Source of the DNA: Bacilli bacterium
GTDB lineage: Bacteria > Bacillota_I > Bacilli_A > JAJDGJ01
Assembly (NCBI GenBank): GCA_031272545.1
Contig: JAISTP010000013.1
Location: 1-55,506 of the forward strand
Direction of reading: 5' to 3'
Length of the DNA stretch: 55,506 nt
Shown here: piece by piece, positions 11,882 to 55,065 of the stretch
Numbering within the stretch: position 1 is the stretch's first letter
How the letters are laid out: the number at the start of each line of letters is the position of its first letter
Position numbers and translations under genes: made by a program
Notes under the pieces: model-generated
The model's input: the letters and a program-made list of their open reading frames with translations, nothing else
Database searches by the model: none
What the model was told of the DNA's origin: nothing

Positions 11882-12358
11882 TTAAATATCTAATAACTTA
11901 ATTAATGGATGATCGTTTTTAATTAAATAGTAAAAGATAATTACTCCGATAAAAACAGCAACCAATTCGCCTACTCCAACTGTGAACATCGTGAAAAATA
12001 ATGGTAATTGAAATACTAAATTTAATTCAACTCCGACAATAATACCATTAACTAATGCAGCTGGTATTAAAACTAAAAAGATATTTCTACATAAGCCAAT
12101 TAACAAACATGCACACAATGTAGCACAAGTTCCAAAAGCTACATCAACTAAACCAAGTGGACTAAACAAATTCACAATGAAACATCCTAATGTTAATGAA
12201 ATAGTATATTTACGATTAATAAAAGGTAATACCATTAATGCTTCACCTAATCTCATTTGAATTTGTCCATAACTTAAAGGTTGAATCATCACCGATAAAG
12301 CAACATAAATAGCAGCAACAACCCCTAATTTAACAATTGTTTGTGTAATATTATTCAT
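11882..12358 (-). CDS. queT: QueT-family transporter, queuosine-precursor ECF S component
   Basis: The 158-residue membrane protein matches QueT: IQPLSYGQIQMRLGEALMVLPF, then GCFIVNLFSPLG and DVAFGTCATLCACLL. QueT is the substrate-binding S component of ECF transporters that import queuosine precursors, and it needs a shared energizing module; one candidate, ecfA1-ecfA2-ecfT, lies 7 kb away. GGAG precedes the ATG, which overlaps the upstream citXG gene by 8 bases. No preQ1 riboswitch is visible, and pairing with a citrate lyase gene is unusual. Confidence 0.88.
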   Translation of the reverse strand: MNNITQTIVKLGVVAAIYVALSVMIQPLSYGQIQMRLGEALMVLPFINRKYTISLTLGCFIVNLFSPLGLVDVAFGTCATLCACLLIGLCRNIFLVLIPAALVNGIIVGVELNLVFQLPLFFTMFTVGVGELVAVFIGVIIFYYLIKNDHPLIKLLDI

Positions 12359-18489: not shown

Positions 18490-19216
18490 AGTATACCTCC
18501 ATTAAGTATAATCCAATACTAGGTACTATTTTAGAATAAGCACTAATATCTTTTTTTTCAAATAATTCATTGATATCATCAAGGCTTTTTTTATTCAAAG
18601 ATACATCAATTAAAATACTAACAATTTTTCTTATCATATATCTTAAAAAGCCATTGCCATAAAAATCTATTGTAATGATATTATTATCATTAGCAATAAT
18701 TATATCATAAATTTCTCTTACACTCTCTTTATTTTTTGGAACTGAACTAAAAGAACGAAAATCTTTTTTACCAATAAATAATTTACTAGCTTCTTGCATT
18801 AAGTTAATATTTAATTCTTTATTGATAAATAACATTCTATTTCTTAATAAAGGATCATATTCATTTAAATTTATTATATATTGATAATGTTTGCCCTTAG
18901 CCTGATAACGAGGATGAAAATTATCATCGACTAATTCCATACTTTTAATATGGATATCTTTAGGTAAAGCTAAGTTAGTCGCATATAAAAAATGATAAAT
19001 ATTTAATTCTTTATTACTTTTAATAATAGCAACTTGATTTAAAGCATGAACTTTTTTATCAGTACGACTAGCGTAAATAAGTTTAATTTCTTGGTTAGCG
19101 ATTCTTGATAAGACTTTTTCCATTTCTTCTTGAACAGTCCTACCCGAAGTTTGCTTTTCCATTCCTAGAAAATCAGAACCATCATAACTAAAAATTAATT
19201 TATAACTAAATAACAT
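18482..19216 (-). CDS. truA: tRNA pseudouridine(38-40) synthase TruA
   Basis: TruA makes pseudouridine at tRNA positions 38-40. The catalytic aspartate lies in YASRTDKKVHAL, a divergent form of the usual GRTD motif. The start LFSYKLIFSYDGSDFLG and the later KGKHYQYIIN are typical. The ORF extends to 19240, but the ATG at 19216 lies 7 bases after GGAG and gives the usual N-terminus. It overlaps the end of ecfT by 22 bases. Its place behind the ECF module is common in Bacillota. Confidence 0.94.
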   Translation of the reverse strand: MLFSYKLIFSYDGSDFLGMEKQTSGRTVQEEMEKVLSRIANQEIKLIYASRTDKKVHALNQVAIIKSNKELNIYHFLYATNLALPKDIHIKSMELVDDNFHPRYQAKGKHYQYIINLNEYDPLLRNRMLFINKELNINLMQEASKLFIGKKDFRSFSSVPKNKESVREIYDIIIANDNNIITIDFYGNGFLRYMIRKIVSILIDVSLNKKSLDDINELFEKKDISAYSKIVPSIGLYLMEVYYD

Positions 19217-19998
19217 ATAATAGCTCCTAAATATAAACATGAAATAATAATAGCAACACTATCTTTACTCATCCAAGCATGTTGAATAAATCTTGTCCTA
19301 GTAGCACTAGGATTATAACCACGAGCCTCCATAGCATTAGCTAATTCTTCTGCTCTTTTAAAAGCTGAAACAAATAAAGGAATTAATAAAGCAATAACTG
19401 CTTTAATTTTAATGCTTAATTTTTTTGCTTTAAAATCAACACCACGAGAAGTTTGGGCAATCATTATTTTATTTGTTTCTTCAATTAAAGTTGGAATAAA
19501 ACGCAAAGCAATTGAAATCATCATTGCAATTTCATGTGCTGGAAAATGAAATCTTTTTAAAGGTGAAAAACATTGTTCAATTCCTAAAGTTAAATCTAAT
19601 GGTTTAGTAGACATTGTTAAAATTGATGAAAGAATAACCATTGATATTAAACGAAATAAAATAATAACCGTTTGATTAATGGCTTGCCAATAAACTATAA
19701 AACTACCAATATTAAAAGCAACTGGTCCTGTTCTTAGCATAAAAATATTTAAAATAAATAGGAAAACAAACATAAAATAAAGTATCTTTATTTGTTTTAA
19801 CATTCTTAAAGGACTTAATTTAGCAATCAATATTAAAATTATAATAAAAATAGTACTTATCGCATAAACTAAAATATCATTTATTAAAAAGACTCCTATT
19901 AACAAGATAAACAAACATATTATTTTTGAAAGAGGATGCATGCGATGAATAATGGAATTAGTTGGAATATATGCTCCTATCGTAATATTATTTAACAT
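19195..19998 (-). CDS. ecfT: ECF transporter transmembrane component EcfT
   Basis: The 267-residue membrane protein couples the ECF ATPases to substrate-binding S components. It has the coupling motifs AQTSRGVDF and AMEARGYNPS, which are the two A-R-G-type helices that contact the ATPases. The start PTNSIIHRMHPLSKI is typical. It overlaps ecfA2 by 11 bases. As the general module it can serve several unlinked S components, for example QueT at 12 kb. Confidence 0.95.
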   Translation of the reverse strand: MLNNITIGAYIPTNSIIHRMHPLSKIICLFILLIGVFLINDILVYAISTIFIIILILIAKLSPLRMLKQIKILYFMFVFLFILNIFMLRTGPVAFNIGSFIVYWQAINQTVIILFRLISMVILSSILTMSTKPLDLTLGIEQCFSPLKRFHFPAHEIAMMISIALRFIPTLIEETNKIMIAQTSRGVDFKAKKLSIKIKAVIALLIPLFVSAFKRAEELANAMEARGYNPSATRTRFIQHAWMSKDSVAIIISCLYLGAIICYLVIN

Positions 19999-20836
19999 TA
20001 TTTATAGCCTCCACTAACAAATTAATTAATGTATCATAGTTAACAAAATACTCAGCTTTTTTATTAAAGACATTTTCATATAAAGCTAGTATTTGTGGTT
20101 TTTCAATACCATATTGATAAACATGATCATTATTAAAAAATGAAACGGTATCTTGATGAAAAATTTTCTTACCGCCACTAAGTAAAATCACTTCATCGGC
20201 ATACTTATAAACAAAATCCATATCATGAGAAACAATAATTAATGTTTTATTAAAATCATTTTTTAATTCTAAAAACATTTGCATCATTTCATTAGCACCT
20301 TGTGGATCAAGGCCAGCAGTCGGTTCATCTAAAACAATAATATCAGGTTCCATAGCTAAAACTCCTGCAATCGCAACTCTTCTTTTTTGACCGCCACTTA
20401 AATCAAAAGGTGATTTTTCAAATAATTCATCTTTAATACCTACTAAATTTAAATATGTCTTAGCTAATTCTTTAGCTTTATCTTCTTCTACATCAAAATT
20501 TAAAGGTCCAAACATTACATCTTTTAAAATAGTTTCTTCAAATAGTTGATATTCACTAAATTGAAAAACTAAACCTATATGTTGTCTTAAATTTTTATAA
20601 CTAGTTTTTGTATCTTGTGGTGTTATTTTGTATTCATCTACTTCAATTGTTCCTTCATCTGGTAATAAAATAGCATTTAAATGTTGAATTAAAGTAGATT
20701 TGCCACTACCAGTTTTCCCAATAATAGCCACAAAGGAATTATCTTTAATTTCTAAAGAAATACCATCTAAAGCTTTATATTCAAAAGGAGTTTTTTTAGA
20801 ATAAGTATGAAAAACATTATTTATATTAATTGACAT
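19988..20836 (-). CDS. ecfA2: ECF transporter ATPase EcfA2
   Basis: The 282-residue ABC ATPase has Walker A GKTGSGKST, signature LSGGQKRRVAIAGVLAMEP, Walker B IIVLDEPTAGLDP and the switch histidine in IIVSHDMDFV. It pairs with EcfA1 and EcfT to drive vitamin and micronutrient uptake. It overlaps ecfA1 by 16 bases and ecfT by 11. Confidence 0.95.
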   Translation of the reverse strand: MSININNVFHTYSKKTPFEYKALDGISLEIKDNSFVAIIGKTGSGKSTLIQHLNAILLPDEGTIEVDEYKITPQDTKTSYKNLRQHIGLVFQFSEYQLFEETILKDVMFGPLNFDVEEDKAKELAKTYLNLVGIKDELFEKSPFDLSGGQKRRVAIAGVLAMEPDIIVLDEPTAGLDPQGANEMMQMFLELKNDFNKTLIIVSHDMDFVYKYADEVILLSGGKKIFHQDTVSFFNNDHVYQYGIEKPQILALYENVFNKKAEYFVNYDTLINLLVEAINNVK

Positions 20837-21645
20837 AATTTATCTTCTAACTCCTTCATGCTTAAATAATCATCAATTTCAATACCTTTTTCTTGTAATG
20901 AATTAGATATTTTTAATGCTAAAGGAATATCTAAACCAATAGCACTTAATTTCTTTGCTTCTTTAAAAATATCTTTAGGTAATCCTTCCATAATAATTTT
21001 ACCTTTTTCTAAAACAATAACATAATCAGCTTTTAAAACATAATCAATATCATGAGTAATACTAATAATAGTAACTTCTTTACGCTCTTGTAAAACATCA
21101 ATTAAATGATTAATTTCATTAACACCAGTTGGATCTAACATACTAGTAGCTTCATCAAAAATCATAATATCAGGATGCATTGCTAGAATACCAGCTAAAG
21201 CAACTCTTTGTTTTTGACCTCCACTTAAACGAGAAGGTTCATGATTTAAATACTCTTCCATTCCAACTTTTTGAGCATATTCTTTAACAATAGGCATCAT
21301 TTCATTACTAGGAACACATTTGTTTTCCAAACCAAAAGCAATATCATCTTGGACACTAGCTCCGATAAATTGATTGTCAGGATTTTGAAAAACAATACCT
21401 ACTTTATCTCTGATATCATAAACACTTTCTTCATTCATTAATAGTCCATCAACCATAATAGTCCCTTTTTTAGCTTCCAACAAACCAATAATTAATTTAG
21501 CTATAGTCGATTTACCACTACCATTATGCCCTAATATTACCGTATGACTACCTTTTTTAATTTTTAAATTAATATTTTCTAAAGTCCATTTTTTAGTATT
21601 ATCATTATTATCATAACTAAAATACAAATCTTTTATCTCAATCAT
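20821..21645 (-). CDS. ecfA1: ECF transporter ATPase EcfA1
   Basis: The ABC ATPase starts MIEIKDLYFSYD and has Walker A GHNGSGKST, signature LSGGQKQRVALAGILAMHP and Walker B IMIFDEATSMLDP. The ATG at 21645, behind AGAGGG, is preferred over the ORF start at 21717, which would add 24 residues foreign to the family. It forms the energizing module with ecfA2 and ecfT. Confidence 0.95.
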   Translation of the reverse strand: MIEIKDLYFSYDNNDNTKKWTLENINLKIKKGSHTVILGHNGSGKSTIAKLIIGLLEAKKGTIMVDGLLMNEESVYDIRDKVGIVFQNPDNQFIGASVQDDIAFGLENKCVPSNEMMPIVKEYAQKVGMEEYLNHEPSRLSGGQKQRVALAGILAMHPDIMIFDEATSMLDPTGVNEINHLIDVLQERKEVTIISITHDIDYVLKADYVIVLEKGKIIMEGLPKDIFKEAKKLSAIGLDIPLALKISNSLQEKGIEIDDYLSMKELEDKLCQLI

Positions 21646-21655
21646 ATTTTCCCTC

Positions 21656-22891
21656 TTATAGAACTTTCTTAATTTCTTTTTTATAAACTTCAACACCAGG
21701 TTGATTAAAAGGATCAACTTTTAACAACATAGCACTATAAGCACAACTATACATCATAAAAGCCATTAAATAAGCTAAATTATATTCATTTAATAAACCA
21801 TTATTAATAAGATAATTATTTACTTTACCACTATTATAATGAGCTTTAATAACACTATCTTTTACAATATTATTTACTTCACTTAAATTATATTTACTTA
21901 AATAACTAAAATCATCATTATCTTTAAAACTTGCTAGATTAATATCTTTATTATTATCAAAAAGAACATTAGTTTCAAACAATAAAGGCGTTCCCTCTTG
22001 CACAAATTGCCCTAAAGAATGTAAATCAGTTGAATAAATCATTCCAATTGGTAATAAACCTTTCTTATCCTTACCTTCACTTTCCGCAAATAATTGCTTA
22101 TACCATTCAATCAAACCTCTTAAATTAGGTTTATAAGTAATTAAAGCTTCAACTTTTTTTCCAGCAAGATATTCTAAATAACGAATACTACCATACTTAA
22201 AAGCAACATTAATATCATCACTATAAAAATCAATACTTGCTTGATTAGCACCAGCTAATAACTTAGTAATATCTAAACCAGTAAAAGCTAAAGGAATTAA
22301 ACCAACTGGGGTAAATACTGAATATCTACCACCAATATCATCATTTATAATATAAGATTTAATATCATTTTTATTTACAAATTCCCTTAGTATTCCATGA
22401 TGAGCATCAGTTGTGATAATCGTTCTTTTTTTAAATTCATCAAAACCATATTTATCAATCATTAATTCTTTAATAATTTCAAAAGCAATACTCGGTTCTA
22501 AAGTAGTACCTGATTTTGATATTACATTTAAAACAAAATCATTTTTATTACAATATTCTAATACATTATTAAAATAATCACTATCTAAATTATTACCTAA
22601 ATAAATTAAACGATACTCTTTATTAAAATTACTATTTAACGCTCTATCAATAGCAACACTTCCTAAGTAAGAGCCTCCTATACCAACAACAATCATCGTT
22701 TTCGCAAGCATTCTTAATTCTTTAATATCTTTATTTATTGAACTAATTAGTTCTTGTTTATTACTACTAGCATATTTATGCCAACCAAACATTTCACTTT
22801 TTAATAAATCTTCTTTGATAGTAGGATAAAGACTTTCTAAATCTTTAATATTCTTATCTAAGATACTACTTTTCATTTCAAAATTGATCAT
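21656..22891 (-). CDS. pgi: Glucose-6-phosphate isomerase
   Basis: Pgi interconverts glucose 6-phosphate and fructose 6-phosphate. Motifs are GIGGSYLGSVAIDRAL, SKSGTTLEPSIAF, GGRYSVFTPVGLIPLAFTG and HSLGQFVQEG. At about 411 residues it is slightly short for the family. The ATG at 22891 lies behind TAGGTGA; the in-frame GTG at 22900 falls inside that site. It overlaps the S1 gene closely and precedes the ECF genes. Confidence 0.96.
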   Translation of the reverse strand: MINFEMKSSILDKNIKDLESLYPTIKEDLLKSEMFGWHKYASSNKQELISSINKDIKELRMLAKTMIVVGIGGSYLGSVAIDRALNSNFNKEYRLIYLGNNLDSDYFNNVLEYCNKNDFVLNVISKSGTTLEPSIAFEIIKELMIDKYGFDEFKKRTIITTDAHHGILREFVNKNDIKSYIINDDIGGRYSVFTPVGLIPLAFTGLDITKLLAGANQASIDFYSDDINVAFKYGSIRYLEYLAGKKVEALITYKPNLRGLIEWYKQLFAESEGKDKKGLLPIGMIYSTDLHSLGQFVQEGTPLLFETNVLFDNNKDINLASFKDNDDFSYLSKYNLSEVNNIVKDSVIKAHYNSGKVNNYLINNGLLNEYNLAYLMAFMMYSCAYSAMLLKVDPFNQPGVEVYKKEIKKVL

Positions 22892-37386: not shown

Positions 37387-40056
37387 TCATTTCGCCAATT
37401 TACGATTAATTATATTACTAAGATTTTCAAAAATTATCATTATATCTTTTGTACCTATTTGTTTAAAATAACCATTATTAGTAATATCCAAATAATTTTT
37501 TATAATGCTAATAATATGATTGTTATCTATAAATAGACCTTCCATATATAATTTATTAATTGTCTCAAAAAAACTAACTACCTCAATTTTAACTATAAAT
37601 TTATAATTATTAGCTTTATTTTTGATTTTCTTATTATATATGTTTTTATTATTATTAATATCTTTATTTATTTCATCATAATCATTTAATACTTCAAGTA
37701 TAAATAATAATGAAAATATTTTTAAAATAATATTTTTACTTTCCAATGTAAATTTTATTCTAGATTTTTTAGATTCACACTCTCTGACAAACATAAAAAT
37801 ACTAAACAATTCTTCTAATTTATCTAAGAAAGTTTTACTTATATCGTCAACTTTTTCTTTACAAGTTTCATAACTAGATTGTGCATTATATTCTTCTTTA
37901 TTGACAACATAATAAGACATATTATCATCATTAATATTTGGTTCTATTATATTGGCACTTAAGATTTTAAATTTCTCGTTTAAATCATTTTTATTATTTT
38001 CACTTATACATAGAAAATAATCTTTATTTAGTTTAATAATAAAACCTAGTAATTTTTTAGATTTATTGTCTTTTTCATATAATCCAGAATATCTCATTGA
38101 TTTAATATAATTATTTATTTCAAATAACATAATTAATATTTCATTTATAATATTAATATCATCATTGATATTACTCCAATAACGATTGAGAATTTTATCA
38201 TATCCATTTATAATTTCTTCTTCATTAAAAGAAATTTTTAATAAACTATTGTATTTATTATATCTAATAAGCCTATTTAAAACTCCTAATAAATATAACA
38301 TTCTTAACATTCTAAATATACAAAATGAATCTTTAATTTTATCTAACTTATTATTTCTAAATGTATCTACATGATTATCAAGTTCCATCTTTATCAAATT
38401 ATAGCCATTAAATTTTATATTTTTTTTAATATAGTAATAATTATCACTTTCTTTATTTTGATTATATATTTTACTTAAACTATAATCATATAATATTGGT
38501 ACTTTAGTTAAACCATTACGATTAAATAATTGGATAACATTAGAATTATTAATATTATTTCTTAATATTTGAGATGAATAAAAGTTTATAATATTGTTAC
38601 CTTGTTCTTTTTTACTCTTTATAAATATTTCCTTGAATATATTGTTATGAATTATATTATCACTTTTTTTATTATAAAATAAAGAATAAACTATGTCATG
38701 AAATTTATCATAAAATTGTTCTAATTCAAAATCATAAATAGAATTCCCATATTGATCTGTTCTCTCTATATTTAATTTTTTAAAATGAATTCCCATATAA
38801 TATTCTAGTGAAGAAAATAATATAATATCTGAAGGCATCATATCATTGTAATAATCATTATCCATAATATTCTTTAAATATAGCAAATAACGAACATTAT
38901 AATTAAACATTGTATTAGTGTTAGTAGATAATTTATTAAAAATTAACATTGCAATTTTTATATCTAAATCAGTATATAACTTAGTATTTTCAAATATTTT
39001 AAATAGTTCTTGTGTTATATTTACTCTGCTGTAAATGATTTCAGATTCTAATTTATAATAACTATCTACAATACTATTATCTAACTTACTAAGGTTCATG
39101 GTAAGTATGATAGCTAATCTTTTATGTAAATATTCTAAACAAAAATATTTGTTTAAATTGTTTATAAATCTAAATACCTTTTTTATATCATTTTTATTTA
39201 ATTGATTGATATCTTCTATAATGATAATATTAATTTTTTTATTATCACATTTTTTAAATATTTCTCTATTCATATAATTTTCATAAAGGATACTTGGAAT
39301 AATTTTAAATCTTGAGCACCAAATAATAATTTTAGTAAAAACATTATTGCGCTTATATAAATAAATGCGAAATATTATAATAAATAATGTAAAAATCACA
39401 ATAATCATGATTTCTATTCCTAAAGCTTTAAAATTATTAAAAATATTACTAAATATATTATTAATAATAGTAGACATAAACAAAATAAAAGAAAAAATGA
39501 AAACTAATTGTGGTATTAAGTATCTTTTTTCTTTACTAGTTTCAATATCATTATAATTATTTTCACAAAGTACTTTATCATATATATATATTAACTTATC
39601 TTTTTCAAAGTACTCATTCCATAATTCAATACTACCATTAAAAATTTTAAAATAATTATAAAATTTATCTATTTCTAATTTCTTCAAATTATCTTTAAAA
39701 AGAAATTTTTCTATTTCATCTCTGTTATTATATCTTAATAATTGAATGTTATCTTTATTTTCACTTATGTCTAAAAGCAAAAAACCACCATCGAAATCAT
39801 TAATTCTAACTAAATTTATTTTATTAAATATTATAAAATGTGTTATATTAATTAAGACTAAAGTATTTCCTAAATCATAAAATTTTATACGTTGATCTCT
39901 AACAAATTCCAATACAGTAGTTTTACCAATTCCACAATCACCATTTAATGTAATAATCTTATTATTTAAAATATTAAATGAGTCTTCATCATTAATTAAT
40001 TTAATAATTTTATAAGCATCTATTAATTGTAAATAAGTAATATTCTCTAGATACAT
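37387..40056 (-). CDS. KAP-like membrane P-loop NTPase, function unknown
   Basis: This 889-residue protein has Walker A GDCGIGKTT at about residues 39-47, two membrane helices at about 185-240 (IPQLVFIFSFILFM and IMIIVIFTLFIII) and a Walker B-like INIIIIEDINQL near 283-293. Membrane helices inserted between Walker A and Walker B are the hallmark of KAP-family NTPases. The remaining 550 residues are helical, Asn/Lys/Ile-rich and unrecognised. Several bacterial KAP NTPases are linked to phage exclusion. The ATG at 40056 lies 9 bases after AAGGAG. It stands alone next to gene remnants and is even poorer in G/C than its neighbours, which suggests an accessory gene. Confidence 0.6.
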   Translation of the reverse strand: MYLENITYLQLIDAYKIIKLINDEDSFNILNNKIITLNGDCGIGKTTVLEFVRDQRIKFYDLGNTLVLINITHFIIFNKINLVRINDFDGGFLLLDISENKDNIQLLRYNNRDEIEKFLFKDNLKKLEIDKFYNYFKIFNGSIELWNEYFEKDKLIYIYDKVLCENNYNDIETSKEKRYLIPQLVFIFSFILFMSTIINNIFSNIFNNFKALGIEIMIIVIFTLFIIIFRIYLYKRNNVFTKIIIWCSRFKIIPSILYENYMNREIFKKCDNKKINIIIIEDINQLNKNDIKKVFRFINNLNKYFCLEYLHKRLAIILTMNLSKLDNSIVDSYYKLESEIIYSRVNITQELFKIFENTKLYTDLDIKIAMLIFNKLSTNTNTMFNYNVRYLLYLKNIMDNDYYNDMMPSDIILFSSLEYYMGIHFKKLNIERTDQYGNSIYDFELEQFYDKFHDIVYSLFYNKKSDNIIHNNIFKEIFIKSKKEQGNNIINFYSSQILRNNINNSNVIQLFNRNGLTKVPILYDYSLSKIYNQNKESDNYYYIKKNIKFNGYNLIKMELDNHVDTFRNNKLDKIKDSFCIFRMLRMLYLLGVLNRLIRYNKYNSLLKISFNEEEIINGYDKILNRYWSNINDDINIINEILIMLFEINNYIKSMRYSGLYEKDNKSKKLLGFIIKLNKDYFLCISENNKNDLNEKFKILSANIIEPNINDDNMSYYVVNKEEYNAQSSYETCKEKVDDISKTFLDKLEELFSIFMFVRECESKKSRIKFTLESKNIILKIFSLLFILEVLNDYDEINKDINNNKNIYNKKIKNKANNYKFIVKIEVVSFFETINKLYMEGLFIDNNHIISIIKNYLDITNNGYFKQIGTKDIMIIFENLSNIINRKLAK

Positions 40057-40247
40057 CACCTATATCTCCTTTACCTAAGTGTATTTATCATATCATTTAA
40101 CTTTTTCAATTAAATTTATTAATCACTTTTATCTTAAAAGAACCATCTTTAAAAATAAGATAAGTGATGTCTAATTTACAAATATATTCTATTTTATTTA
40201 AATCTATTACACATTAAAGCAACCTATTCATTCAATATTCGTATTTA

Positions 40248-47275: not shown

Positions 47276-47312
47276 AAAATAACTAGTAGCTTAGACTACT
47301 AGTTTTTTATTT
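47276..47312. terminator. Bidirectional terminator between tRNA-Leu and the ECF operon
   Basis: AACTAGTAG/CTACTAGTT has T runs on both strands. It ends tRNA-Leu and the converging cobalamin operon. Confidence 0.85.
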
Positions 47313-47981
47313 AATACCATATTTAACTTTAATTCTCTTTAATTTTTTAGTTAAGGGTTTATATAATAAAATAATAAAAATAATATTAGATAAAGCATAA
47401 TAAATATAAAAAGGACCAGCCGCAATAAGTAAAGCAATAAACTTTTCATTAGTGTACCCTGAACTTAAACAAGTAAGAAAATCCATCATCATTGAGAATA
47501 GAATACCACAAAGTCCAGCATAAATAATTCTTCCTACTATATTATCAATAATACCTTTGATATTTAAAAGACCAGCTAAATAACCAAATAGACCCCAAAT
47601 AAACATTTGATAAATAGTCCACATTCCTTGCCCAAAGAAAAATCCTGATACTAAAGCAGTAAGTGAACCTACTAAAAAGCCAACTTCTTTTTTATAAACA
47701 GCGCCACTTATAATAACAATACAGACAACTGGTTTAAAAGAAGGTAACCATGCAAAAGCAAGACGTGTTAATACCGCAATGGCAACTAATAAAGCGACAA
47801 TTACTACCTCTCTAGCTTCAACTTTTTGATGATCATATTTATAATAAAAAGGAATAATACCTATTATTGCAATAAGCATTGAAGATAAAAGATAATTATC
47901 TACTTTTAATAAGAAAATAGCTAATACTAAAGCAAAGCATAAAGATACTAAAAAAATTACTTGTTTAATTGCTTGTGACAT
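47307..47981 (-). CDS. ECF S component, probably cobalamin-specific (CblS-like)
   Basis: This 224-residue protein has six to seven hydrophobic helices and ECF S-component features (VVIVALLVAIAVLTRLAFAWLP, then GFLVGSLTALVSGFFFGQG). The substrate is assigned as cobalamin only from context: a cobalamin riboswitch heads the operon and DUF4430 genes sit beside it. It resembles predicted CblS components. It overlaps the end of the ATPase gene by 25 bases and is last in the operon. Confidence 0.78.
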   Translation of the reverse strand: MSQAIKQVIFLVSLCFALVLAIFLLKVDNYLLSSMLIAIIGIIPFYYKYDHQKVEAREVVIVALLVAIAVLTRLAFAWLPSFKPVVCIVIISGAVYKKEVGFLVGSLTALVSGFFFGQGMWTIYQMFIWGLFGYLAGLLNIKGIIDNIVGRIIYAGLCGILFSMMMDFLTCLSSGYTNEKFIALLIAAGPFYIYYALSNIIFIILLYKPLTKKLKRIKVKYGIK

Positions 47982-49588
47982 AGTGCTAACACATCCTTAT
48001 AAATAATAGTATTATCAAAAATATTTCTTGTTAGTTTAACAGTAGCTGTGGTATAGAAATTATTATCTTTAAAGAAGGTACGAGCATCTTCTTGTGAAAC
48101 AATTTCACCATCAAATAACATGGCACATTCATCACCAAAATTAGCACAAAATTCAATATCATGAGAAACCATAATAATAGTTAATCCTTGTTTAATCAAT
48201 TTCTTTAAAACATAAGCTAAATATCTTTTATTAACATAATCTAAACCTTTAGTTGGTTCATCTAAAATTAATATTTCTGGTTCTAATAATAATAACTTTA
48301 CTAAAGCAAGTTTTTGTTGCTGACCACCTGAAATATCATAAGGATGTTGTTCAAGTAAAGGGATTAATTCAAAAGCTTCCGCATAAGACATAATAGTATT
48401 ATTATTAGCTTTACTTTGATAAGTTAATTCTTCCAAGACACTATCTTTTGAAAATAATAAAGTTGGATTTTGTGGTAAATAAGCCATTTTAGTCTTACTT
48501 TTTGCTAAAGGAATATTATCTATTTTAACTTGTCCACGATAAGGTTTACTAATACCAACTAAACAATTAATTAAAGTAGATTTACCAGCACCATTATTAC
48601 CAAGTAAACAAAATAATTGATGTTCATATATTTTTAAAGAAGTCTTTCTTAAAATATCATTATCTTTTTTATCATATCTAAAATAAAGATTTTTTAATTC
48701 AACTTTAACTTTTTTACTTAATATTTCTTTCTCTTCTTCTTCAAAACAATCATATTTAAAATTATCTCTCAATAATTTCTTACCTTCTTTAATATTTAAA
48801 GGTAAGGAAGAAGTAATATCTAAATCTAAAGCTAAACGCATTGAAGTTGGTAAAGCTTGTAAAAAAGTATGTTTAGAATCAATTTCTTTAATATCAAAAG
48901 CAATTTTAGTTGGTGAATTAAGACCAATAATTTTACCTTTATCCATAACCACTACCTTACTTGCAATACTCAAAACTTGTTCTAAACGATGTTCAACCAT
49001 AATAATAGTTGTTGATAATTCTTCATTAACTTTACGAAGACATTCTAAAAAATCACTAACAGCTAAAGGATCTAATTGAGAAGTTGGTTCGTCTAAAACT
49101 AAAACTTTTGGATTTAATAAAAGAATAGTTGCTAAATTAACTATTTGCTTTTGACCACCACTTAAAGTTGTAGTTTCTTGTCTAAATAAATCTTGAATCC
49201 CAAAGAAATTACTCGTTTCTGCCACTTTTCTTCTAATAACACTAGCCTTAGTACCAATATTTTCTAAACCAAAAGCTAATTGATGCCATACTTTATCACT
49301 AATAATTTGGGCATCAGGATTTTGCATTAAATAACCAATATTGATTGCACTTTGAAATTTATCCATATCTTTAATAGCTTCACTATAAAATAAAACTTCA
49401 CCACTAGATTCACCTACAGGAATTAATTCTTTTTTTAAGTGAGATAATAAAGTTGTTTTACCACAACCACTACTTCCACAAATTAAAACAAAATCACCTT
49501 CATCAATACTAAGATTAATATTATCTAAAGCTAATTTATTAGAATGAGGATATTTAAAACTTAAATTTTTGATATTGATAAGCGCCAT
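47957..49588 (-). CDS. ECF transporter fused double ATPase
   Basis: This 543-residue protein is two ABC ATPases in one chain. The first has GSSGCGKTT and LSGGQKQIVNL; the second has GNNGAGKST (about residue 335) and ISGGQQQKLALVKLLL, each with a Walker B (VLVLDEPTSQLDP, ILILDEPTKGLDY). Fused A1-A2 subunits are typical of dedicated ECF transporters. AGGAGG precedes the ATG. It overlaps both neighbours. Confidence 0.93.
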   Translation of the reverse strand: MALINIKNLSFKYPHSNKLALDNINLSIDEGDFVLICGSSGCGKTTLLSHLKKELIPVGESSGEVLFYSEAIKDMDKFQSAINIGYLMQNPDAQIISDKVWHQLAFGLENIGTKASVIRRKVAETSNFFGIQDLFRQETTTLSGGQKQIVNLATILLLNPKVLVLDEPTSQLDPLAVSDFLECLRKVNEELSTTIIMVEHRLEQVLSIASKVVVMDKGKIIGLNSPTKIAFDIKEIDSKHTFLQALPTSMRLALDLDITSSLPLNIKEGKKLLRDNFKYDCFEEEEKEILSKKVKVELKNLYFRYDKKDNDILRKTSLKIYEHQLFCLLGNNGAGKSTLINCLVGISKPYRGQVKIDNIPLAKSKTKMAYLPQNPTLLFSKDSVLEELTYQSKANNNTIMSYAEAFELIPLLEQHPYDISGGQQQKLALVKLLLLEPEILILDEPTKGLDYVNKRYLAYVLKKLIKQGLTIIMVSHDIEFCANFGDECAMLFDGEIVSQEDARTFFKDNNFYTTATVKLTRNIFDNTIIYKDVLALCHKQLNK

Positions 49589-50442
49589 CTTATTTCCTCC
49601 TCTATTTCAAAAATTAATGGTAGAATTAAAAACAATAAAAACATCATATAACTAATAATACTTAAACTATCTAGAGAAACAATTGCTATTTTAGGATAAT
49701 AATAAAAAGATAAATTATGATAGAAATAAATAAATATAGTTAAACCCATACAAATAAATAACAATACTAAAGCAAATAAATCCCTTTTTTCAAAATGATA
49801 TAGATGATAATTAGTTCTTTTTCTACTACCATATCCTAAAGAATTAATTGAATTAACACTATCTAATGAATTTTCAAAAGCAAAACTAACAAGAGCTAAA
49901 AAACAATGAATACTACTCTTTAATTTATCAAATAAATTTCTATTTTTAATATCATAATTAATCTTGTGAAAATCTTTAATTTTATGATAATAATCTTGTA
50001 AATAAGGAATATATCTTAATACTAATGAAATTATAAAAGCAAGTAAAGGACTAATTCTTCCTAATAAATAGACAACTTTATCACTATCCATAATTAAACT
50101 TAAATTCTTAAACCATATTAAAGTAGCACTTATCATTAATGCAAAACTTAATCCAAAGATAATCGATTCTAAAGTAATAGGATTATCATTCATAAAGAAA
50201 AGAATAGTAAATCCTTGATGAACAAACATTGCATTAATAATCATACAAACAAGCACAAAAAGGATAACTAAAAATATTATCCTTTTAAAGCTAATAATTG
50301 AAGTTAATTTAACATTAATAATAATTGCCATTAATAATGAAATACTTAAGTAGATTGGATTCATACTAAACATACTAAATCCAATACAACCAATAAAATA
50401 TAAAGCAATTATTAATGGATGAAAAGTTTTCATTTCTTTCAT
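49561..50442 (-). CDS. ECF transmembrane T component, probably cobalamin (CblT-like)
   Basis: The 293-residue membrane protein is a divergent EcfT: HPLIIALYFIGCIG at the start, helices through 130 and a cytoplasmic coupling region with SINSLGYGSRKR in place of the usual A-R-G motif. Its ATG immediately follows the DUF4430 stop codon (TAAATG), so translation is coupled. It serves the dedicated cobalamin-type transporter, separate from the general ecfA1-ecfA2-ecfT module at 20 kb. Confidence 0.85.
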   Translation of the reverse strand: MKEMKTFHPLIIALYFIGCIGFSMFSMNPIYLSISLLMAIIINVKLTSIISFKRIIFLVILFVLVCMIINAMFVHQGFTILFFMNDNPITLESIIFGLSFALMISATLIWFKNLSLIMDSDKVVYLLGRISPLLAFIISLVLRYIPYLQDYYHKIKDFHKINYDIKNRNLFDKLKSSIHCFLALVSFAFENSLDSVNSINSLGYGSRKRTNYHLYHFEKRDLFALVLLFICMGLTIFIYFYHNLSFYYYPKIAIVSLDSLSIISYMMFLLFLILPLIFEIEEEIRWRLSISKI

Positions 50443-51186
50443 TTAATATCCATTCCCCACATCTTTACCACGATTAGTAGTATATTTAAATTTAATTTTA
50501 TCATTATTTTTTAAATGATATGAACCAACTCCATAATTAGGAAAAGTATTATTTACCATATAAACCCAACCACTTTGTGAACCAGCATCAAATTCACTTA
50601 TATTTCCAATACTTTGAATATATAAATTACTACCACTACCACTATGTTCAACACTAAAACCATATTTTCTTGATGCTTCAATTAAAACATCATAAACACT
50701 AGCATTCTTTTTTACATCAATATCAATATTACTCAATATATAACCATTTTTAGGAATAAATTCCTTAAGATTATCATCAACTTTATCTTTACCTGGACTC
50801 TTTATTAAAACCAAAGTATCAATACTAATACTAATCTTAATATTAGTACTTTCTTTTTTTATAGTACTACTACTTTTATTTGTTACACTCTTTTTTAAAG
50901 AATTATTATCTACTTTATTAGAAATATTAGCATTCTTTTTATTTTCTTTTTTTACATCATCTTTAATTTCTTTTTTAATATCCTTATTTTCTTGATTATT
51001 ATTTTTCTTTTCTTCTTTATTCTGATTAATAATCTTTGAAGTACTAATATCTTCTTTTTTATTTACTACTTCAGGTTCTTGTTCATAATATTGAACTGTT
51101 GTTTTAAAACCACTTACTATTTTGATACAAACTATCAATATAACTAAAATAGTTATTATTGTTATTAAAATCTTTCTCTTCATCAT
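50443..51186 (-). CDS. Membrane-anchored DUF4430 protein, predicted cobalamin binder
   Basis: An uncleaved N-terminal helix (about 5-25) is followed by a Lys/Asn/Glu-rich linker to about residue 115 and a DUF4430 domain (transcobalamin-like C-terminal, PF14478 type). Conserved parts are VYDVLIEASRKYGF, GSQSGWVYMVNN and FPNYGVGSYHLKNNDKI, then KFKYTTNRGKDVG. This resembles the beta domain of intrinsic factor. It probably holds cobalamin at the outer face for the transporter. The alpha-barrel half of the animal carriers is missing. Confidence 0.82.
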   Translation of the reverse strand: MMKRKILITIITILVILIVCIKIVSGFKTTVQYYEQEPEVVNKKEDISTSKIINQNKEEKKNNNQENKDIKKEIKDDVKKENKKNANISNKVDNNSLKKSVTNKSSSTIKKESTNIKISISIDTLVLIKSPGKDKVDDNLKEFIPKNGYILSNIDIDVKKNASVYDVLIEASRKYGFSVEHSGSGSNLYIQSIGNISEFDAGSQSGWVYMVNNTFPNYGVGSYHLKNNDKIKFKYTTNRGKDVGNGY

Positions 51187-51195
51187 ATTTCTTTA

Positions 51196-53346
51196 TCAAT
51201 ATACTTTCTTTTTCTTACCATAGGCATTATAAGTATACTTATGACTTGATTTTATTTTGTTATTTTTATAGATCTTATCATATGAATAAGCTTTACCATA
51301 TTTATTAGATTTTAATACTCCTAAGCTATTATACTTATAATATAAGTTACGTGCAAGTTTACCTTTACTATACCCAAATTTATCATAACTTTTTACTTTA
51401 CCATTGCTATAATAAGTATATTTTTTAATACTAGTATATTGATTATTATTATTTTTATAATAATAATTATTAGTTTTTATTTTTTTATTACTATAATATG
51501 TTTTAGTATTAAAATAAGTAGTAATATATTTATTTTTATATAGATTCATTGTTTTACTTTTAATTAATAATAAATTACTATCATAATAATTATTAACTTT
51601 TTTATTAATTATTTTATTATTATTTCTTGTTATAACATAAGTAGAACTTTTACGTGTACCTTGCCATAAACCACTAACATTTAATTTATTTTTATCATAA
51701 ACATAATTTATTATTGTTTCAACATTACCATTTTGATAACTAGTTTTATAAACATAATAAATATTATTATTTCTTTTTAAATAATAAGTTGTCTTACCAC
51801 TTTTATAAGAATAAGAATTAATTTTATTAAAATCATTTAATACTTTTAGATAATTCATATAAGCACTTGCATAATATTCTTTAATAAATTCTTTTTCATT
51901 ATTAGTAGCTTTTTTATCTAAACTAACAATTTCATTTAATAACTTATAACTACTTTGATATTTATCATATTCTTTATTATTAATAACATTCTCATCAAAT
52001 TGATTTAACTTATTAATAAGCGGTTTACTAATAATCATAAAACTATTACCATTAGTTGGAACAATTAAATTACCCTTATTATCACTAATAATACTAAAAT
52101 AATTATATTTTTTTAAATTAGCATTCGCAAATTCATAATAAATAGGACTTTTATTATTATTATTATCCTGTCCAATTATTAATTTACCAGTGTTATAATC
52201 AATAAAATAAAAATAAGTTTTACCAGAATATCCTTCACTTACTAAAGGAATTGATTGAGTATTATAATTAGTATTAGCTATTAAAGTTAAATCTTTAGTA
52301 TAAACCATTAACCCTTTACCATATTGACCACCACTACTTAAATAAATATTATTAGCACCTAAACCAATACCACCACTAACTTCATTTTTTAATGATACTA
52401 TTTTAAGATCTTTTAAATCAAAAGAATGATTATTTATTTTAAAACGATATAACTTTTTACTTTTTTGCGTTGCTACATACAAATAATTAGTTGCTTCATC
52501 ATATACTAAAGTACTTCTAACATTATTATTACTACCATCCATGTGATAAGTATCATAAACCGTATTATCTTTTAAAGAATGAATAATTACATCACCATTT
52601 TCATTAGCCATAATAAGTGAATCATTAACAATAATGCTATCAGAATAATAATAACCCCATCCTTTGTCAAGATTATCACTTGGATAGGTCCATGCATAAT
52701 CAATAGTATTATTATTTATATTACCATGATTAACATCTATCGCATAAAAGAAACCGTGTGAAGGCTCATTATTAGAAGATGGATTTAATACAACACTATT
52801 ATATAAATAACCATCATAATATAAAGGCTCTGAATTAGATTGACCATAAATTGTTTTTTGTTTACCATTATCTAAAGTTATTTTAAATTTAACTAGTTTA
52901 GTTTCCCATAACTTAGTAAAGCTATTTAAATCTATTGCCATAGTTTTTCCACCATCAATAGAAATAAATAGTTTATTATCACCAGCAGTAAGTTTATTAG
53001 AAACGACTCCAATACTATCTTCATTTAACTTTAAAGTTCTTTTAGTACTAGTTCCATTAAGATTATATTCAAGTAATGAACCACCATCATTAAAAGCTAC
53101 TACCATATAAATTTTATTATGATAAACAATTCTTTCTTTAATACTATTTACATTAGGAATATTAACATTTATCGCATTAATATCGTTATTATTAATTGGT
53201 GTTAATGCTTTAGTAACTTTACTATTAGTTAGATTACCTCCATAACCTACCCAATCATTATCTTCATTAATAGCTTTAATATTTATTTGACATATAAATA
53301 TTAAAATTAATATTAATATCCATAAATAATTATATTTTCTTTTCAT
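51196..53346 (-). CDS. Secreted beta-propeller-like protein with Tyr-rich C-terminal repeats
   Basis: A signal peptide (residues to about 25, ending NIKAI) precedes a PQQ-like beta-propeller region (about 30-440) starting WVGYGGNLTNSKVTKALTP. The last 200 residues carry YwqK/MORN-like repeats (Y-x-N-G-x-x-K-x-x-x-Y), very rich in Tyr, Asn and Lys. No anchor is seen, so it is secreted or held by charge. Its place as the first gene of the riboswitch operon suggests capture of cobalamin or of a cobalamin-bound protein. The ATG at 53346 follows AAGGAG. Confidence 0.68.
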   Translation of the reverse strand: MKRKYNYLWILILILIFICQINIKAINEDNDWVGYGGNLTNSKVTKALTPINNNDINAINVNIPNVNSIKERIVYHNKIYMVVAFNDGGSLLEYNLNGTSTKRTLKLNEDSIGVVSNKLTAGDNKLFISIDGGKTMAIDLNSFTKLWETKLVKFKITLDNGKQKTIYGQSNSEPLYYDGYLYNSVVLNPSSNNEPSHGFFYAIDVNHGNINNNTIDYAWTYPSDNLDKGWGYYYSDSIIVNDSLIMANENGDVIIHSLKDNTVYDTYHMDGSNNNVRSTLVYDEATNYLYVATQKSKKLYRFKINNHSFDLKDLKIVSLKNEVSGGIGLGANNIYLSSGGQYGKGLMVYTKDLTLIANTNYNTQSIPLVSEGYSGKTYFYFIDYNTGKLIIGQDNNNNKSPIYYEFANANLKKYNYFSIISDNKGNLIVPTNGNSFMIISKPLINKLNQFDENVINNKEYDKYQSSYKLLNEIVSLDKKATNNEKEFIKEYYASAYMNYLKVLNDFNKINSYSYKSGKTTYYLKRNNNIYYVYKTSYQNGNVETIINYVYDKNKLNVSGLWQGTRKSSTYVITRNNNKIINKKVNNYYDSNLLLIKSKTMNLYKNKYITTYFNTKTYYSNKKIKTNNYYYKNNNNQYTSIKKYTYYSNGKVKSYDKFGYSKGKLARNLYYKYNSLGVLKSNKYGKAYSYDKIYKNNKIKSSHKYTYNAYGKKKKVY

Positions 53347-53397
53347 CTTATTCTCCTTATAAAAAATCATATTTTTACTATAATTTGTTAACTATTT

Positions 53398-53429
53398 AAA
53401 AAAAGTTAAATTCAAACGAATTTAACTTT
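53398..53429 (-). terminator. Riboswitch 1 terminator hairpin
   Basis: On the minus strand AAGTTAAATTC-GTTT-GAATTTAACTT is followed by a T run, about 50 bases before the propeller gene start. It is the expression platform of the upstream riboswitch. Confidence 0.8.
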
Positions 53430-53532
53430 CTTATAAATCGCGTGAATTAATAATAAATCAATGTTTTCTGGCTTGAGTATTACTCTCTTACAGTGGCGCG
53501 TCCGCTTAGGCTTTTACCTAATTACCATTGAT
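53430..53532 (-). promoter_or_regulatory. Cobalamin riboswitch 1
   Basis: The minus-strand RNA has an outer stem ATCAATG/CATTGAT (53526-53532 with 53457-53463), a GCGGACGCGCCACTGTAA core with the universal GCCACTG, and the B12-box-like CAAGCCAGAAAACA. Downstream, CACGCGAT can make a kissing loop with the core GACGCGCC. The terminator at 53398-53429 follows. The aptamer is compact. It should turn off the propeller-DUF4430-ECF operon when cobalamin is plentiful. Confidence 0.88.
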
Positions 53533-53553
53533 AAAATATTTAATTGTCTTAAC

Positions 53554-53583
53554 ATTATAGCATTTATTAGTTTATTTGCACAA
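53554..53583 (-). promoter_or_regulatory. Promoter of riboswitch 1 and the ECF operon
   Basis: TTGTGC-N18-TATAAT on the minus strand, starting just past the stop codon of the LPxTG-type gene. No terminator separates the two units, so read-through from the upstream gene would also have to pass the riboswitch. Confidence 0.55.
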
Positions 53584-53589
53584 AACTTA

Positions 53590-54813
53590 TTAAATTCTCT
53601 TAGTCATTAGTAATGATGTTCCTAAACTTAAAAATAATATAACAATAACTAATGAATTACTACCAGTATCTGGCATATTACTAACTAATTTAGTATTACT
53701 TTTTTTAACTTGTATATTTTTAATAGGACTATTAGTTACAATATTTGTATTATTTATTACTTGTTTGCCTTGTAAGTTTGATATATTTATCTTTAAATCA
53801 TCAATTGATTTTTTTATTTCTTCATCACTAGCATATGGATTATTAAATATAGCTTTGGCTTTATCAATACTATTACTTAAATTTTGATAAGAAGCATTAG
53901 TATATTTACTTTCTTGATATTTAGAAGCATCTTTAATCGCATTATCTAAAGCTCTAGATTTAACAATTAATTTTAAATGAGCTCTACTTAATTCATTAAT
54001 CATAGGATCATATTCATCCGCATAACCAGCAGTATCAATTCTAGAAGTTACATTATATTCTCCAGGTTGATTAACAATAAAACTAAATTCTCCTTTAATA
54101 TTAGATACATATCCATCATTTGGACTAGTAATCAATGTTCCAGGACCATAATTACTTTCATCTAAAACATTATATGTTCCATCACTTTTTTTCTTTTCTA
54201 GTATAACTAAAGCATCACTAGCAGGACTTATATCTGTTCCCATATTCCAATTCTTATCAAAAATAGCTAATTTATAATTAGTAAGATTAATCATTTCATC
54301 ATCAAAGACTGTAAGCTCTTCTTTATCAAAATAAGAATAAAATTGAGAAATATAATCATAGGTTAAGAACAATACAATCGAATCATTTTCATGTAAAGGT
54401 GCCGCATTTATCGCATATCCATAACCAGTATTTACATCAACTGGATATTTATTATTAATAGTAAACATCCATTCATCCGCATAAGTTCCATTTTTAGAAC
54501 GACTATTATTTAATATTGTACTTAAATAGCTACCAGTAAATCCACAATCAAGAATATTTTTATCACTAAGATCATATCCTTTATCTTGTAATACTTTTAC
54601 TAAAGCATGTAAAACAACAGGATGTTTAGTGTAATCACTACTATTACCACCAACAATATTTGAAATATCAATAGGCGATACATCAACTTTTGTTTTCTCA
54701 ATAAGCGTCTTTTCATTACTTTCAACTCTAATACTAACATTCATTGCTTCTAATTGATTAGATGTTAAAAAAATAAATAATCCTAACATCAATCCATACA
54801 TAATTTTTTTCAT
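53590..54813 (-). CDS. Cell-wall-anchored DUF4430 protein, predicted cobalamin binder
   Basis: A signal peptide (about 1-23, ending NQLEA) precedes a DUF4430-like domain (about 30-160; HPVVLHALVKVLQDKGYDL and ADEWMFTINNKYPV, then NDSIVLFLTYDY), a middle beta-rich region, and a helical FIVAR-like repeat (about 295-355). The C-terminus is a sortase signal: MPDTG near 384, a membrane helix and a basic end (TKRI). The MPDTG motif is a variant of LPxTG. It is predicted to hold cobalamin on the wall. It has its own riboswitch. Confidence 0.82.
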   Translation of the reverse strand: MKKIMYGLMLGLFIFLTSNQLEAMNVSIRVESNEKTLIEKTKVDVSPIDISNIVGGNSSDYTKHPVVLHALVKVLQDKGYDLSDKNILDCGFTGSYLSTILNNSRSKNGTYADEWMFTINNKYPVDVNTGYGYAINAAPLHENDSIVLFLTYDYISQFYSYFDKEELTVFDDEMINLTNYKLAIFDKNWNMGTDISPASDALVILEKKKSDGTYNVLDESNYGPGTLITSPNDGYVSNIKGEFSFIVNQPGEYNVTSRIDTAGYADEYDPMINELSRAHLKLIVKSRALDNAIKDASKYQESKYTNASYQNLSNSIDKAKAIFNNPYASDEEIKKSIDDLKINISNLQGKQVINNTNIVTNSPIKNIQVKKSNTKLVSNMPDTGSNSLVIVILFLSLGTSLLMTKRI

Positions 54814-54841
54814 ATAAACTCTCCTTTTATAAGCAATCTCT

Positions 54842-54870
54842 AAATAAAAGAGCAGTATTCACTGCTCTTT
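54842..54870 (-). terminator. Second hairpin before the wall-anchored DUF4430 gene
   Basis: AAAGAGCAGT-N4-ACTGCTCTTT followed by TATTT on the minus strand, 29 bases before the start codon. It lies downstream of the riboswitch terminator. Confidence 0.55.
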
Positions 54871-54880
54871 AGTTTTTATA

Positions 54881-54909
54881 AAAAAAACTAAATTCAAACG
54901 AATTTAGTC
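54881..54909 (-). terminator. Riboswitch 2 terminator hairpin
   Basis: ACTAAATTC-GTTT-GAATTTAGT with a T run on the minus strand, matching the hairpin behind riboswitch 1 (same loop, same GAATTTA arm). Confidence 0.8.
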
Positions 54910-55016
54910 TCAATAAATAGAAATCGCGTGAATTACAATTAATCAATGTTTTCTGGCTTGAGTATTACTCTTACAGTGGCGCGTCCGCTTAGGATTTTAA
55001 CCTAATTGCCATTGAT
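54910..55016 (-). promoter_or_regulatory. Cobalamin riboswitch 2
   Basis: It shares the outer stem ATCAATG/CATTGAT, the GCGGACGCGCCACTGTAA core, the CTCAAGCCAGAAAACA box and the CACGCGAT kissing partner with riboswitch 1, and differs mainly in loops and spacers. It controls the wall-anchored DUF4430 gene. Confidence 0.88.
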
Positions 55017-55036
55017 AAATATTAAATTGTGTAATT

Positions 55037-55065
55037 ATTATATCATTAAAATAACTAGTTACAAA
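55037..55065 (-). promoter_or_regulatory. Promoter of riboswitch 2
   Basis: TTTGTA-N17-TATAAT on the minus strand, about 20 bases before the aptamer. The remaining gap to about 55390 is plain A/T-rich DNA with no gene that I can see. Confidence 0.55.

Follow-up and report, generated by a model that had tools for sequence, protein, structure and literature searches.

A riboswitch-controlled Bacilli operon with DUF4430 and propeller surface proteins and a CbrT-type ECF transporter, a candidate system for cobalamin uptake

Introduction

The surface capture of vitamin B12 by Bacteroides, through BtuG and BtuH, is well studied. For Gram-positive bacteria the open-licence literature yielded no experimental study of such capture, and no paper was found there that tested binding by bacterial DUF4430 proteins or described a propeller partner for them, a result which is not proof of absence. 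Among importers, the CbrT-type system is called CbrUVT when complete. CbrT has been proven to bind and import both cobalamin and cobinamide (PMC5997447), CbrUVT has been named among the B12 transporters of gut microbes (PMC6593275), and BtuG of Bacteroides is a surface propeller with femtomolar affinity (PMC6143338). In transcobalamin, B12 is sandwiched by a toroid and a beta-grasp domain (PMC1796856). For secreted, transcobalamin-like beta-grasp proteins of low-GC Gram-positives, a role as B12 scavengers was predicted by Burroughs et al. (2007). Such proteins often have a wall anchor, a paralogous partner or a fusion to a FIVAR, toroid or propeller domain, and often share an operon with CbiO/CbiQ; one propeller fusion was named, and the FIVAR and propeller domains were taken as possible surface tethers (PMC1796856). 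The annotation name 'Additional lipoprotein component of putative cobalamin ECF transporter' is in use as well (PMC9963975).

Here we describe a locus of this kind from a Bacilli bacterium, located in the window, by which we mean the whole 55,506-nucleotide stretch of DNA that was analysed. It is similar to ECF-CbrT in the family of its S-component, in the logic of an ECF T component and ATPase and in its link to cobalamin; whereas CbrT of L. delbrueckii uses a shared general ECF module, a T component and a fused ATPase of its own sit here beside S, and surface DUF4430 and propeller proteins are co-encoded. With the SLBB/DUF4430 systems of Burroughs et al. (2007) it shares paralogous secreted beta-grasp proteins, a wall anchor, FIVAR, a CbiO/CbiQ operon and a host without a B12 synthesis marker; in contrast to them, its propeller is a separate gene, whose link to the CbrT-type S is documented by a panel of genomes. 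The C-terminal beta-grasp domain of animal transcobalamin and intrinsic factor is homologous to DUF4430, but no alpha/alpha barrel was found here with the probes used, a propeller occupies the equivalent place, and the proteins are anchored rather than soluble. BtuG offers a parallel in the way it works, being a propeller on the cell surface whose B12 uptake locus is under riboswitch control; it is, however, a seven-bladed lipoprotein sitting on the outer-membrane BtuB, whereas the propeller protein described here is PQQ/BamB-like and encoded in an ECF operon without BtuB.

An initial annotation of the locus had regarded its surface set as little described. This was too generous, as a 2007 paper had already reported surface DUF4430 proteins from CbiO/CbiQ operons together with their wall anchors, their occurrence as paralogous pairs and their fusion to propellers, and the concept of secreted DUF4430 B12 scavengers in such operons, predicted at that time, is already known (PMC1796856). 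What is new here, as read from sequence comparisons, is the linkage of the propeller protein to S on the genome panel, two arrangements of DUF4430-propeller fusion, and toroid-like proteins in the equivalent place elsewhere.

Results and Discussion

Operon organization and riboswitches

Six open reading frames (D1, P, D2, T, A and S) are present on the minus strand; with two leaders they span 55064 to 47281, and all features of the operon given below are on that strand. The first leader lies upstream of D1 (53590..54813) and the second upstream of P (51196..53346), D2 (50443..51186), T (49561..50442), A (47957..49588) and S (47307..47981), whose frames overlap or almost touch; a bidirectional, terminator-like hairpin (47281..47304) is found at the operon end. 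P likely starts at 53346, as supported by a ribosome-binding site (AAGGAG, read by eye), and not at 53370, where its frame could also begin.

With permissive Rfam settings, both leaders were recovered as cobalamin aptamers. Riboswitch 1 (AdoCbl-type, 54889..55033) matched RF01482 with 40.3 bits (E 8e-5) and riboswitch 2 (53442..53564) matched RF00174 with 25.6 bits (E 0.002), neither reaching its Rfam gathering score (50 and 31.5, respectively). Both contain the canonical full B12 box (GCCACUGUAAGAG...CUCAAGCCAGAA), and each closes with a strong terminator hairpin and U run, at 54884..54911 for the first (a perfect stem, shuffle z -4.9) and at 53398..53426 for the second (z -4.1 for the 29-nt stem, -3.9 for the 53-nt leader). 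Since, in addition, the leaders 5' of the equivalent genes in the relatives G001, G003 and G026 score above threshold (47 to 101 bits), both were accepted as real, divergent riboswitches, in agreement with the initial annotation; in more distant genomes, leaders at these genes reach 50 to 128 bits.

That annotation had also placed the gene set as a whole under the two riboswitches. Both leaders are indeed there, but they probably head two transcription units, D1 alone under the first and P-D2-T-A-S under the second. The first unit is preceded by a promoter-like element at 55037..55064, a match to consensus only (TTGTAA, 16 nt, TATAAT with TG extension), and for the second a separate TG-n-TATAAT box was spotted by eye. 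An early reading, with both riboswitches on one transcript, was given up for two units. Leaders of this type usually act by ligand-driven termination, and we infer that both would terminate upon B12 binding. A candidate loop-loop contact, suggestive only, was seen as CGCG/CGCG in three of this genome's four leaders, riboswitch 1 among them, and as UCC/GGA in G001.

The ECF transporter and the B12 need of its host

For S, a small membrane protein, a profile was built from four members and compared to the PDB by hmmsearch. The best match was 6FNP_A, the CbrT of the L. delbrueckii ECF-CbrT complex (E 4.9e-12, profile positions 58-224), and the second and only other one was another ECF S-component (E 5e-5). 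Given the 6FNP match, CblT/CblS, the S family to which the importer had been assigned earlier, was dropped for CbrT, for which transport is proven (PMC5997447). The T and ATPase components that a CbrT-type transporter requires are provided by T (the transmembrane component, CbiQ/CbrV-like; PF02361, E 6e-6) and by A, a fused CbiO-CbiO double ATPase with two ABC domains in a single open reading frame (TIGR04520, E 4e-96), which bears out the complete transporter initially described. Elsewhere in the window there are an apparent general EcfT-A-A' set, at 19195-21717, and an apparent QueT-type S gene; the module beside S is thus a second one, apparently dedicated.

The host looks B12-dependent. 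Its genome (1.3 Mb, 98% complete) encodes the B12-dependent D-ornithine 4,5-aminomutase (OraSE), lysine 5,6-aminomutase (KamDE) and a MetH-type methionine synthase, as well as a PduO-type cobalamin adenosyltransferase, and neither the synthesis marker CbiC nor a FecCD/BtuC-type permease was found in it. Four cobalamin riboswitches were detected genome-wide; besides the two of the operon, the third lies 5' of D3, a further, distant DUF4430 protein whose signal marks it as a lipoprotein, and the fourth 5' of the anaerobic ribonucleotide reductase gene nrdD, right behind metH. Corrinoid uptake is strongly supported by the kinship of S to CbrT, the conservation of the riboswitches, and a genome that looks dependent on B12 and in which neither a synthesis marker nor an importer of the BtuC type was found, and the cobalamin acquisition system originally envisaged is upheld: we estimate a probability of roughly 0.85 for the predicted import of cobalamin/corrinoid by this operon via a CbrT-type ECF transporter. 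Such operons are a concrete candidate for B12 scavenging by low-GC Gram-positives that need B12.

The surface proteins

D2, which has an N-terminal hydrophobic segment, is a clear DUF4430 protein (PF14478, 68.7 bits, E 6e-19, above the curated cut-off), and D3 also exceeds the Pfam cut-off with 48.1 bits. DUF4430 matches in 'Bacteriophage sp.' records were discounted, these being apparently bacterial contigs with the T/A/S genes. The secreted, 407 aa long D1 is far more divergent, scoring 16.4-17.5 bits (E 0.006 to 0.013) against a Pfam cut-off of 23.8, with 12 of 5000 shuffles scoring equally well; hhalign of the D1 and D2 profiles aligned the signal peptides alone, so that the assignment of D1 to DUF4430 rests on Pfam and the shuffles. 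Among D1-like regions of relatives, that of G153 outscores all 5000 shuffles and that of G256, scored with the local D2-type profile, does not rise above its shuffles; the G256 result and the sub-threshold score of D1 itself count against the capture model. D1 also contains a FIVAR-like repeat, and at its C-terminus MPDTG, a hydrophobic stretch and KR form a putative sorting-type wall signal (read by eye).

P itself had no match in Pfam or NCBIfam. It belongs to a PQQ/BamB-type propeller family, relatives of which are recognised by Pfam as PQQ_2, and carries a C-terminal repeat region. The AlphaFold model of P has a mean pLDDT of 65, with the propeller region mostly at ~70-85, and Foldseek placed it among YxaL, BamB and YncE propellers, BamB and YxaL being the top matches. 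This type of fold serves many functions, which counts against a B12-specific reading of P. When the profile of the P family was compared to the PDB, PQQ and BamB-type proteins were returned and no BtuG (3DSM) at E <= 1; lacking a sequence match, and with BamB/YxaL best in Foldseek, P was rejected as a BtuG homologue. An aromatic loop (W227, Y229 and G239-Y241; W..GYY) is kept in 7 or 8 of the 8 P proteins, relatives of about 25% identity included, and is put outside the strands by the AlphaFold model; it is the first candidate for a contact.

The secreted propeller and the membrane-anchored DUF4430 protein of the initial annotation were thus recovered as P and D2; of its wall-anchored DUF4430 protein, D1, the sorting-type signal stands, but the DUF4430 domain is sub-threshold.

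Linkage and fusions in related genomes

Among the 296 genomes of the class that formed our panel, a strong relative of S (E < 1e-40) is present in 22 and P in eight. All eight P genomes also carry a strong S, at a distance of 78 to 10388 bases (Fisher p 2.4e-10, a value that ignores kinship, four of the eight being of one family). The gene-order search in related genomes that had been suggested as a check found D2-T-A-S-P kept in G001, of the same genus, and in G026, of another family; D2 precedes T in relatives as well, and most strong-S genomes examined have the order T-A-S behind a cobalamin riboswitch. In G026, a second T-A-S copy is located near a BtuR adenosyltransferase. Some genomes have a strong S without P or DUF4430 alongside, and a capture layer is therefore not generally required for import.

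In several relatives, these parts are joined. G153 and G256 encode a D1-like region and a propeller as a single protein directly after S, while G052 has one lipoprotein in which DUF4430 comes after the propeller, and the differing domain order indicates separate fusion events. In G040, G107 and G279, which are without P, a toroid-like protein is encoded ahead of D2, and in several other families a lipoprotein consisting of DUF4430 and then a toroid-like region adjoins a DUF4430 protein and an S-like gene. G052 carries both a toroid-like protein and a propeller, showing that the two are not strictly exclusive. Foldseek matched the toroid-like family weakly to alpha/alpha-toroid enzymes (best E 1.3e-3, none below 1e-3); in the top 18, intrinsic factor is the 11th match and transcobalamin first appears as the 14th (E 0.006-0.013). 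As Pfam and PDB sequence searches gave no match and no Foldseek E fell below 1e-3, we call it toroid-like only. Neither a homologue of it nor any alpha/alpha barrel was found in the host genome with the probes used; the earlier statement that the system does without the barrel of the animal carriers thus applies to this genome but not to the class of systems, given the toroid-like proteins beside DUF4430 and S in relatives.

A possible two-part carrier and its alternatives

At low cobalamin, both leaders would be read through and the system made, as expected of B12-repressed corrinoid scavenging. D1, with its wall-type anchor and divergent transcobalamin-like beta-grasp domain, and the propeller P would then form a surface capture layer in which cobalamin is held between a beta-grasp domain and the propeller face, the beta-grasp half opposite P being supplied by D1 or D2. 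D2, a membrane-tethered beta-grasp domain, would take the corrinoid and present it to the CbrT-type S, with the dedicated T and fused double ATPase supplying the power. A relay from wall to membrane to cytosol is plausible, judging from the positions predicted from the sequences (a wall-type anchor on D1, secretion of P, membrane location of D2 and S); that D1, P and D2 bind cobalamin, and in which order they would pass it on, is what we infer beyond this.

The simplest reading of the exchange between toroid and propeller among relatives is that P stands in the toroid's place. We therefore propose, tentatively, that P and DUF4430 may constitute a two-part cobalamin carrier in which the propeller substitutes for the alpha/alpha barrel of the transcobalamin architecture. 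That this would be a Gram-positive capture complex convergent with both transcobalamin (by its sandwich) and Bacteroides BtuG (by its propeller) is possible rather than probable, and binding by the propeller, taken as a single step, is likewise a suggestion that falls short of an even chance. Should the propeller indeed act as the barrel does, a single small domain would have teamed up, for one and the same ligand, with partners of two unrelated folds. The operons also bear on the proposal that animals took the transcobalamin beta-grasp domain from such bacteria.

One could also suppose that the transporter and D2 import B12 while P and D1 do not bind it and act as tethers that hold the complex on the wall, or on polysaccharides of the host or the wall; tethering is the role that Burroughs et al. 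(2007) suggested for FIVAR and propeller domains (PMC1796856). This has a real though less than even claim: D1 carries a FIVAR-like sequence, the propeller fold is generic, and the long C-terminal repeat region of P recurs in other proteins of the family. P is, however, confined to this system (8/8) and under a B12 riboswitch, whereas a tether of general use should turn up in other settings as well; it is the propeller domain, rather than the repeat tail, that has been conserved and that G052, G153 and G256 carry fused to DUF4430; and W..GYY is kept in all or almost all of the eight P proteins.

Whichever role P has, the ligand might differ. A cobinamide user would need the genes of lower-ligand assembly (cobU/S/T). 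CbrT takes cobinamide as well as cobalamin (PMC5997447), but a preference for a corrinoid precursor (cobinamide), or for another cobamide, over cobalamin itself is unlikely, as nothing here favours a precursor, CbiC being the one synthesis gene checked. Transport of something else, such as riboflavin or cobalt, with incidental B12 control is very improbable: S does match PF07155 (ECF-ribofla_trS, E 2e-6) and DUF6580 (E 2e-9), and T and A bear CbiQ/CbiO names, yet CbrT is the best solved match of the S profile, far ahead of the sole other one, the CbiM/CbiN that a cobalt transporter needs were not seen in the operon, on which ground that candidate was rejected, and in most of the genomes examined the module lies behind a B12 riboswitch.

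Other features of the genome and its relatives

In the operon itself, a second perfect hairpin (AAAGAGCAGT/ACTGCTCTTT, window 54847-54870) was found between the terminator of riboswitch 1, the cobalamin leader, and the start of D1, the gene for a putative, divergent DUF4430 protein. Elsewhere in the same genome, a third DUF4430 protein, a lipoprotein as judged by its signal, is encoded on the minus strand of contig C50 (L001:880-1425); its gene is solitary and has a cobalamin riboswitch of its own (L001:1501-1613). Another cobalamin riboswitch was located on the minus strand of contig C15, in the metH-nrdD intergenic region (L002:1501-1626), and nrdD, which encodes the B12-independent anaerobic ribonucleotide reductase, is apparently under B12 control in this genome.

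The CbrT-type module shares the window with an apparent general-purpose ECF module (predicted EcfT and two EcfA, 19195-21717) and a predicted QueT-type S-component (11882-12358). An 890-aa protein (window 37387-40059) displays a P-loop-like N-terminus and hydrophobic segments; Pfam gave no match for it.

In relatives, the interval between the S-component and propeller genes encodes large surface proteins: one has Big_2/DUF4430 domains and a sorting-type C-terminus, NTPNTGTTE (L027:13263-16496), and another combines a PI-PLC-X domain with weak similarity to ricin-type lectins (L070:7836-11001).

DUF4430 genes were also observed in two unverified GenBank records from human faeces labelled 'Bacteriophage sp.', together with ECF T, A and S genes in MT835727.1 and with an ECF T gene in MT837027.1; both are probably bacterial contigs misfiled as phage.
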